Assembly (NCBI GenBank): GCA_022795855.1
Contig: JAAWHL010000008.1
Coordinates: forward strand, 1 to 49,761
Length of the DNA: 49,761 bases
Direction: 5' to 3'
Origin: Lawsonibacter sp.
GTDB lineage: Bacteria > Bacillota > Clostridia > Oscillospirales > Oscillospiraceae
Both the position numbers and the translations under genes were made by a program. Each line of letters begins with the position of its first letter. The stretch's first letter is position 1. The notes beneath the pieces were generated by a model. That model had not been told where the DNA came from and made no database searches. It saw nothing but the letters and a program-made list of their open reading frames with translations. This document shows positions 10,239-20,794 of the stretch, piece by piece.

Positions 10239-10874
10239 ATGTTTGACAGCAAAGTACACATTCTGGACCATCCCCTGCTCCAGCACAAGCTGGGCATCCT
10301 CCGGGACAAGAACACCGGAGTGAAGGAGTTCCGTGAAATTGTTTCCGAGGTCGCCGCGCTGGAGTGCTACGAGGCCACCCGGGACCTGCCCCTGGAGGAC
10401 GTGGAGATTGAAACGCCCATCGCCAAGGGCACCTTCAAGTGCCTGGCGGGCAAGAAGCTGGCCATTGTCCCCATCCTGCGGGCCGGCCTGGGTATGGTGG
10501 ACGGCATTCTGAACCTGGTGCCCTCCGCCAAGGTGGGCCACATCGGCCTGTACCGGGATCCGGAGACCCACCAGCCCGTGGAGTACTACTGCAAGATGCC
10601 TGACGACATCGACCAGCGGGACGTGATTGTCCTGGATCCCATGCTGGCCACCGGCGGTTCCGCCGTGGCGGCCATCCAATTCATGAAGAATTACGGCTGC
10701 CAGCACATCAAGCTGATGAATATCCTGGCCGCCCCCCAGGGGATTGAGGCGGTGCGCAAGGCCCATCCGGACGTGGACATCTACGTGGCCGCGGTGGACC
10801 CGGAGCTGAACGGCCACGCCTATATCGTCCCCGGCCTGGGCGACGCGGGCGACCGTATTTTCGGCACAAAATAA
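10239..10874 (+). CDS. upp: Uracil phosphoribosyltransferase
   Basis: Converts uracil and PRPP to UMP in pyrimidine salvage. It has 211 residues. The PRPP-binding loop is [16 protein letters not shown] and the uracil-binding C-terminus is [26 protein letters not shown] precedes the ATG. It is the last gene of the tsaE operon. Its TAA stop directly abuts a family A repeat element, whose AGGACCTG begins with the last A of the stop codon. Uracil uptake is probably provided by uraA further right. Confidence 0.97.
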
Positions 10875-18918: not shown

Positions 18919-18947
18919 TTGCGCTTCCTCCCGCCTTCTGATATAAT
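18919..18947 (+). promoter_or_regulatory. SigA-type promoter of uraA
   Basis: TTGCGC (18919-18924), a 17-nt spacer and TATAAT (18942-18947). The transcript would carry about 145 nt before the uraA ATG at 19100. Confidence 0.75.
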
Positions 18948-18979
18948 AAGCCGAAAATTGAGAAGGGGGTGGAGCGGCG

Positions 18980-19099
18980 ATGGCGAAGGGACTGTTTTTC
19001 CCCTGGGCCGCGGCGCTGTTATTCTTTTCTCTTTCGCCGGATGACAATCACGTTTGTGGTTGTCTTTTTTTGTGGAGAAATCTGAGAGGGGAGAAAGAA
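18980..19099 (+). other. Translatable leader in frame with uraA
   Basis: An ATG at 18980, preceded by AAGGGGGTGGAG, opens 40 codons (MAKGLFFPWAAALLFFSLSP and onward) that run without a stop into the uraA ATG at 19100. The coding strand has a T-rich stretch (TTATTCTTTTCTCTTTC) just before a terminator hairpin. This is the layout of the E. coli pyrBI leader, except that the leader has no stop of its own. It could be a leader peptide that controls attenuation or a true N-terminal extension of the permease. Confidence 0.5.
19043..19071 (+). terminator. Intrinsic terminator (attenuator) inside the uraA leader
   Basis: GACAATCAC, loop GTTT, GTGGTTGTC, then seven T residues. The stem is 9 bp with one G-U pair. 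It lies 29 nt before the uraA ATG and downstream of the uraA promoter, so transcription must read through it to express the permease. Confidence 0.8.
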
Positions 19100-20455
19100 A
19101 TGAATCCAAACGAACCCATCCGCGACGCCCGGCAGCTGGGCGTGCCCAAAATGCTGGTTCTGGGCATTCAGCACATGTTCGCCATGTTCGGCGCCACCAT
19201 CCTGGTCCCTATCATCGTCAGCAGCCAGTACGGCCTGCCCCTGAACATCCAGACCACCCTGTTTTTCGCCGGAATCGGCACCCTGTTTTTCCACCTCTGC
19301 GCCCGGATGCGGGTGCCCGCCTTCCTGGGGTCCTCCTTCGCCTTCCTGGGTGGCTTTGAGACCATGTCCAGGCTGGACCAGGGGATTTACGCCGGCATGG
19401 AGCCTGCGGAAAAGCTCCAGTACGCCTGCGGCGGCATTGTGGCCGCCGGCCTGCTCTATCTGATCCTGGCCCTGCTGGTCAAGGTGGTGGGTGTGCGGAA
19501 GGTGATGCGGTTCCTGCCCCCGGTGGTCACCGGCCCCATCATTGTGTGCATCGGCCTGAACCTGGCCCCCTCGGCGGTGAGCAACGCCGCCACCTGCTGG
19601 CCTCTGGCGCTGATAGCCCTGGCGGTGATTATCATCTTCAACATCTGGGGAAAGGGGATGCTGAAAATCGTCCCCATCCTGCTGGGCGTGGTGGTGTCCT
19701 ATCTGGCGGCTCTGGTGATGAACGCCTGCGGCGTGACCGCCGCCGACGGAACGCCCCTGCTGGACTTCACCGCCGCGGTCCAGGCCGGCTGGGTGGGCCT
19801 GCCCCCCTTCCAGCTGGCAAAGTTTGACCTGTCCGCCGTGCTGGTCATGGCCCCCATCGCCGTCGCCGCCATGATGGAGCACATCGGCGACATGTCCGCC
19901 ATCTCCGCCACCGTGGGGGAGAACTTCCTGGAGGACCCCGGCCTGCACCGCACCCTGGTGGGGGACGGACTGGCCACCACCCTGTCCGCCCTGTTCGGCG
20001 GCCCCGCCAACACCACCTACGGCGAAAACACCGGCGTGCTGGTGCTCTCCCGGGTCTACGACCCCAAGGTAATCCGCCTGGCCGCCCTCTATGCGGCGGT
20101 GCTGGGCTTTATCCCCAAAATGGCCGGGCTGATTGGTTCCATGCCCTCCGCCATCGTGGGCGGCGTGTCCTTCATGCTCTACGGCATGATTTCCGCCATC
20201 GGCGTGCGCAACATTGTGGAGAACCGGGTGGACTTCACCAACTCCCGCAACCTGATTATCGCCGCCGTGATTCTGGTGTGCGGGCTGGGCTTTTCCGGCG
20301 GCCTGACCTTCCAGGTGGGGGGCGCGTCGATGACCCTGACCTCCCTGGCCATCGCGGCCATCGCCGGCATCGCGCTCAACGCCGTCCTGCCCGGCAACGA
20401 CTACGAATTCGGCATCAACCCCGAGGGGGACAAGCACCGGGGCATCCACCCGTAA
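19100..20455 (+). CDS. uraA: Uracil permease, NCS2 family
   Basis: A 451-residue NCS2 nucleobase:cation symporter with about 12-14 membrane segments. Family features are GIQHMFAMFGATILVPI in the first helix, then SAFLGGFET-like and MMEHIGDMSAIS blocks, and GGPANTTYGENTGVL. The MMEHIGD glutamate is a substrate-binding position in UraA. Uracil is the most likely substrate, fitting upp and cdd nearby. The ATG at 19100 has GAGAGGGGAGAAAG upstream. An in-frame upstream ATG would give 491 residues. Expression is probably controlled by the leader attenuator. Confidence 0.93.
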   Translation: MNPNEPIRDARQLGVPKMLVLGIQHMFAMFGATILVPIIVSSQYGLPLNIQTTLFFAGIGTLFFHLCARMRVPAFLGSSFAFLGGFETMSRLDQGIYAGMEPAEKLQYACGGIVAAGLLYLILALLVKVVGVRKVMRFLPPVVTGPIIVCIGLNLAPSAVSNAATCWPLALIALAVIIIFNIWGKGMLKIVPILLGVVVSYLAALVMNACGVTAADGTPLLDFTAAVQAGWVGLPPFQLAKFDLSAVLVMAPIAVAAMMEHIGDMSAISATVGENFLEDPGLHRTLVGDGLATTLSALFGGPANTTYGENTGVLVLSRVYDPKVIRLAALYAAVLGFIPKMAGLIGSMPSAIVGGVSFMLYGMISAIGVRNIVENRVDFTNSRNLIIAAVILVCGLGFSGGLTFQVGGASMTLTSLAIAAIAGIALNAVLPGNDYEFGINPEGDKHRGIHP

Positions 20456-20470
20456 AAACTGCGGCAAGTT

Positions 20471-20512
20471 TCACCTCTCCCGCTCATAAACATGACGGGA
20501 GAGGTGATTTTT
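20471..20512 (+). terminator. uraA terminator whose 3' arm contains the yqfC ribosome site
   Basis: TCACCTCTCCCG and CGGGAGAGGTGA form a perfect 12-bp stem with a 13-nt loop, followed by TTTTT and then directly by the yqfC ATG at 20513. The GAGAGGTGA of the right arm is also the only ribosome site of yqfC, so the folded hairpin would hide it. Confidence 0.75.
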
Positions 20513-20794
20513 ATGGAAAAACGAGGGCGGCGCGAGGGCCTGCTGGAGCGGACGGCCCAGGCCCTGGACCTGCCGGCCGACGCGGTGGCCGGCCTGCCCA
20601 GGGTGGAGCTGGTGGGGGACAAGGAGCTGCGGATGGAGAACCACCGGGGCATCCTGGCCTACGGGGACCGGGAGATCCACATCAGCGGCGGGCCCTTTGT
20701 GGTAAAAGTGACGGGAGAGGGGCTGGAGCTGCGGGCCATGACGGGGCTGGAGCTGCTGATTACCGGCCGCATCGCCGGCGTGCAGCTGTCCTGA
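20513..20794 (+). CDS. yqfC: Sporulation protein YqfC (YabP/YqfC family)
   Basis: A 93-residue YabP/YqfC family protein, conserved in endospore formers, where yqfC and yqfD form a SigE-dependent pair. It shows LPRVELVGDKELRMENHRGI and the C-terminal LELLITGRI. I chose the ATG at 20513, which has GAGAGGTGA; the ATG at 20492 has none and lies in a hairpin loop. No SigE promoter was identified by eye. yqfD starts 12 nt downstream, as in other spore formers. Confidence 0.9.
   Translation: MEKRGRREGLLERTAQALDLPADAVAGLPRVELVGDKELRMENHRGILAYGDREIHISGGPFVVKVTGEGLELRAMTGLELLITGRIAGVQLS

Follow-up and report, generated by a model that had tools for sequence, protein, structure and literature searches.

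The uraA gene of this Lawsonibacter sp. is preceded by a leader that we read, with a probability of about 0.6, as a pyrBI-like, translation-controlled transcription attenuator in which a 5' hairpin, here called P1, would race with ribosome loading on a short leader reading frame. The elements of the leader, identified in a stretch of 49,761 nucleotides (the window), are collected in Table 1. A preliminary description had proposed the order promoter, SD-ATG, U-rich tract, 9-bp hairpin with seven T residues and uraA ATG, and this layout was confirmed in the window sequence; because it recurs in 70 other non-redundant leaders, it is beyond what chance would produce.

Table 1. Features of the uraA leader region (positions in the window)
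Feature	Positions	Strand	Basis or detail
Promoter: -35 TTGCGC (18919-18924), 17-nt spacer, extended -10 TGA-TATAAT	18919-18947	+	Sequence; -10-to-leader-ATG spacing same in relatives
-10 hexamer of the uraA promoter	18942-18947	+	
Predicted P1 5' strand, holding leader SD and start codon	18960-18990	+	Fold, pair list, own-versus-cross pairing tests
Leader SD, AGAAGGGGG	~18961-18969	+	Sequence
Leader reading frame, ATG 18980, in frame with uraA, stopless here	18980-19099	+	ORF reading; relatives stop at terminator edge
First pyrimidine tract	~18993-19003	+	
Predicted P1 3' strand, with the greater part of the second pyrimidine tract	19001-19031	+	Pair list
Second pyrimidine (U-rich) tract, TTATTCTTTTCTCTTTC	19019-19035	+	
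TGA at the conserved leader-stop position, out of frame here	19042-19044	+	
Intrinsic terminator, 9-bp hairpin and seven T	19043-19071	+	Hairpin 19043-19064, one G-U among the 9 bp; T run 19065-19071
uraA, NCS2 uracil-type permease	19100-20455	+	ATG 19100; own SD AGGGGAG just upstream

The promoter that had been placed before the leader was found, with an extended -10 and a weak -35 that matches TTGACA at 3/6 positions, which explains its absence from the list of a simple scan. From its sequence, transcription is predicted to start near 18954. The terminator is the sole terminator-like site on the + strand between 18700 and 19400, and since the nearest gene upstream of the leader lies on the opposite strand and no -10 was found in the 35-nt gap between the hairpin and uraA in the window, transcription of uraA has to cross the hairpin. 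The product of the gene was assigned to NCS2/Xan_ur (uracil/xanthine-type transporters). Downstream of uraA, at window 20465-20515, a strong hairpin (CACCTCTCCCG...CGGGAGAGGTGATTTTT) that carries a short T run overlaps the start of a yqfC-like gene of the YabP family; yqfD and a PhoH-like gene come next.

For the comparison with relatives, uraA loci were drawn from the named genomes plus the genus and family, and a single set of rules was applied to the sequences upstream of them. Ninety leaders, mostly from metagenome assemblies, passed the rules (terminator, promoter and start); 71, among them the window, remained once redundant ones had been removed. L007, L076 and L148 lie outside the set by start choice, each with a better ATG close by, and L182 and L183 are terminator-bearing leaders without a clear SD. 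The 70 other distinct Oscillospiraceae leaders have promoter, SD-ATG, short ORF, pyrimidine tract and an intrinsic terminator before uraA in common with the window, and the distance from transcription start to ATG is 17-34 nt in 69 of the 71. The alignment of relatives that had been suggested as a check thus bears out the hairpin, the U tract and the leader frame, all kept across the 71 leaders, and no relatives' leaders without start codon or U tract were found in this set. T makes up 48-61% of positions -20 to -5 relative to the hairpin, and the longest pyrimidine tract is 16.0 nt, versus 10.9 in shuffles.

Inclusion in the set called for a leader peptide no shorter than 14 aa, which biases it toward open frames. 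In 67 of the 71 leaders the first in-frame stop is found between -4 and +20 nt relative to the edge of the hairpin, compared with 3 and 10 for the other two frames, and of the 48 cases with a stop triplet right at that edge, whatever its frame, 42 belong to the leader frame (p 1e-14). Stops are TGA in 61 leaders and TAA in 9; their placement holds over 11 leader lengths, from 14 to 26 codons, and is kept across unrelated hairpins (GACAATCAC-like, CCGG-type and others). These data bear on the idea that the leader is simply a small gene ending in a terminator of its own, with a different promoter serving uraA, which we consider very unlikely: Firmicutes terminators often begin near stop codons (discussed in PMC7858274), but a -10-like hexamer between terminator and uraA appears in only 4 of the 71 leaders (none in the other 67, the window among them), the peptide is not conserved, and the stop position is fixed while the length varies.

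The leader peptides are in fact dissimilar between species apart from the F, L and S residues that come from the tract. The FF and LLFFS codons pointed out in the preliminary description do arise from the U-rich tract, as proposed there, and since no peptide is conserved they are a by-product of it. That F, L and S are frequent could suggest an attenuator responding to phenylalanine, leucine or serine codons; we regard this as extremely improbable, as no residue combines universal presence with repetition (three or more F in only 31/70 leaders, several leaders having none or one), the target is a uracil permease, and no alternative antiterminator was seen, the search for a partner of the hairpin 5' arm giving a mean z of 0.14, with 4/71 leaders below -1.64.

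The preliminary description also had the leader frame reading into uraA. This is true in the window, where no stop precedes uraA and the frame yields a 40-aa in-frame extension, so that the permease of this genome may possibly carry a hydrophobic N-terminal extension of 40 residues. It is not a shared design: the window is the single leader of 71 without a stop before uraA, with the TGA in place and the frame wrong, and no leader-permease fusion was found in the other 70. As uraA keeps its own SD despite the open leader frame, the fusion is treated here as a frame change specific to this species or to the assembly.

A pyrBI-like attenuator had already been proposed for this leader, and the relatives lend strong support to a leader-peptide attenuator that works without PyrR; what had been overlooked is P1. 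According to the folding analyses, the leader SD is complementary to, and pairs with, the pyrimidine tract of the same leader, giving a long 5' hairpin (median helix 20 bp in the leader set, between promoter and terminator) predicted to bury SD and AUG. Pairing with the own tract beats cross-species pairing by about 3 kcal/mol in a permutation test, a value reached by 0/5000 permutations with the 71 leaders, 0/20000 with 59 and 10/20000 with 12 divergent ones, while a control region nearby showed little own-pairing effect (325/5000 permutations). Pairing of the tract with the SD of uraA itself gave no excess over shuffles (z -0.03). In a clade of 15 leaders, RNAalifold returned an 18-bp P1 plus the terminator; P1 pairing was 93%, dropping to 44-61% in slid controls, and covariation of P1 alone was modest, its score being reached by 6/500 shuffles. 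A covariance model (R1) built from these clade leaders, with the window excluded, finds uraA leaders in relatives and ranks the window leader first in its genome, at 37.7 bits and E 2.1e-6, the runner-up having E 1.9. No second gene with the R1 element was found in the genus genomes searched. One strong extra match (L261) was rejected as an ordinary terminator.

P1 sequence and loop differ widely between species, and because of these differences a consensus P1 was not recovered in the alignment of divergent leaders, for which the permutation test was used instead; the consensus over those leaders recovers the terminator only. The same observations weigh on the possibility that P1 is itself a sensor, opened or stabilised by a small molecule or an RNA-binding protein and thereby gating leader translation and termination. 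A long conserved helix between promoter and terminator would fit such a role, but we think it unlikely, given the variable sequence and loop, with no conserved core in the divergent alignment, and the lack of any Rfam match on the leader; no riboswitch aptamer core emerged either from Rfam or from the divergent-leader consensus.

Minimum-energy folds of the nascent RNA in the window, a crude proxy, leave the SD mostly open early and seal it once the polymerase is in the region of 19042-19048, some 20 nt short of the T run, and P1 and the terminator can coexist in the window fold. On the preferred reading, a race between P1 and ribosome loading, uraA transcription would start wholly at the promoter in Table 1 and would have to pass the terminator. 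A ribosome loading early on the leader SD would reach the leader stop and cover the 5' arm of the terminator, and uraA would be transcribed; in this genome, the leader ribosome would continue through the hairpin. With no early ribosome, the emerging tract would fold onto SD and AUG, closing the leader, and the terminator would form. A ribosome standing at the leader stop would have a footprint that covers the 5' arm of the terminator, and since P1 and ribosome loading are mutually exclusive, leader translation should switch uraA on, with P1 plus terminator as the default state.

The likely signal would be polymerase speed, set by UTP. The window RNA before the leader ATG (5' strand) is 11% U and the tract 56% U, so that a shortage of UTP would slow the appearance of the tract, leave the SD accessible for more time and increase uraA expression. 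Much of the U content of the tract is accounted for by its pairing to A and G in the SD strand (36% of P1 5'-strand guanines pair with U, close to the 30% on the terminator 5' arm), and because that content is partly forced by P1 in this way, base composition alone is no proof of UTP sensing. UTP-sensitive pausing in the tract is likewise plausible from the sequence, but the tract does not demonstrate it, because much of it is accounted for by complementarity to the SD. Such pausing is the core of a simpler version of pyrBI control, in which it would couple ribosome and polymerase and P1 would have no role of its own. The U-rich tract 0-19 nt 5' of the hairpin in nearly all leaders, the 47% U among unpaired bases of the last 25 nt, and the coupling principle documented for E. 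coli pyrL (PMC10135430) agree with it; still, the species-specific pairing of P1 and its modest covariation in the clade, neither of which a by-product would show, make this version rather unlikely in our view. Coupling cannot be assumed in Firmicutes in any case, because the polymerase of B. subtilis outruns its ribosomes (PMC7858274).

The preliminary description had seen no PyrR-type site by eye, and the covariance-model scan it suggested agrees: no PyrR RNA was found above the Rfam cut-off in the window, in its own genome or in relatives. The PyrR protein is absent as well from 40/40 genomes of this group, own genome (93% complete) included. A PyrR-like match in that genome (28%, E 2.9e-6), far below the PyrR cut-off, is a 263-aa ORF that is probably another phosphoribosyltransferase such as PurR. 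Across the family, PyrR is above cut-off in 22 of 121 genomes and below it in 99. The leader is present in 17 of the 27 PyrR-negative family genomes with uraA, and in all nine PyrR-positive genomes with a close uraA this gene directly follows pyrR and the leader is absent (Fisher p 0.001, kinship ignored). In those nine pyrR-uraA pairs (L157, L160, L161, L163, L164, L166, L188, L189, L191), UraA is more distant (55-61% identical full-length), and no Rfam PyrR element was detected upstream at the gathering cut-off. A PyrR-controlled attenuator overlooked by the models would be the usual Firmicutes solution, and the regulator does occur in the family, as noted; with neither protein nor RNA in this group and the leader missing from PyrR-positive relatives, we give this explanation almost no credence. 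At loci labelled Lachnospiraceae, no leader was found under the same rules, though UraA is about 70-77% identical.

No leader of the uraA type was found before pyrB, carA or upp in these genomes. In the genus (L114-L132; own L120), pyrB has a short 5' UTR without terminator, and its promoter and start region are strongly conserved (CTTGCG...TTTRTGGTAGGATA...GAAGAAAA), which suggests control at initiation rather than attenuation. The carA genes (L199-L217; own L215) lack a terminator, and their 5' UTR of about 70-90 nt is conserved toward its 3' end (GGAACGGAAGGCGTGTGAGAGAATTGATGAAA-like). The window also contains upp (uracil phosphoribosyltransferase, 10251-10874), apparently as part of an operon; it has the orientation of uraA, is located some 8 kb upstream of that gene and has no attenuator.

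PyrR is the usual account of pyrimidine control in Firmicutes, yet most of the sampled genomes of this gut family fall below its cut-off, and the leader offers a testable substitute. It bears on whether ribosome-polymerase timing can serve as a means of gene control in Firmicutes, and if the reading proposed here is true, it would represent a kinetic switch in a phylum whose transcription is believed to run ahead of translation. We tentatively extend this, at a little under even odds, to a widespread kinetic switch in PyrR-less Oscillospiraceae, in which the leader would stay open until the tract seals the SD and the time taken by the polymerase would report nucleotide supply, no RNA or protein having to bind a ligand. 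The dozens of natural variants in helices, stops and leader lengths constitute ready compensatory tests.

Among known systems, the PyrR RNA-binding attenuator (RF00515) controls termination before pyr genes of Firmicutes, including uracil permease, whereas the group with the uraA leader has neither PyrR RNA nor protein. In B. subtilis pyrG, residues of G added by reiterative transcription pair with the terminator's own strand. Both that system and the uraA leader would sense a nucleotide by attenuation without a regulatory protein, through the RNA 5' end and a pyrimidine-rich stretch; in the uraA leader, by contrast, the partner of the 5' strand lies upstream of the terminator, P1 can form alongside the terminator, and a leader ORF is conserved. 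Control of E. coli upp-uraA, codBA and carAB acts at initiation, and these genes differ from the present case in having no leader ORF or terminator. The pyrG attenuation is mentioned in PMC4448216, together with the reiterative or start-site control of these E. coli nucleotide and uracil-transport genes. No description of this uraA leader was found in Rfam or the open-licence literature searched, which is weak evidence of absence. The closest likeness is to pyrBI of E. coli and Salmonella (leader pyrL), which shares a promoter-proximal ORF with SD, a U-rich tract before an intrinsic terminator, a leader frame that reaches the terminator, a pyrimidine-related target and the lack of an antiterminator hairpin vying for the 5' arm. 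The uraA leader may thus work like pyrBI attenuation and be new, as far as this limited search can suggest, in three respects: its target is a uracil permease rather than aspartate transcarbamoylase, in a different phylum; its stop usually lies at the hairpin edge, while pyrL runs past and stops 3 nt before pyrB; and its SD-burying hairpin is conserved, whereas comparable pairing in E. coli pyrL is not above shuffles.
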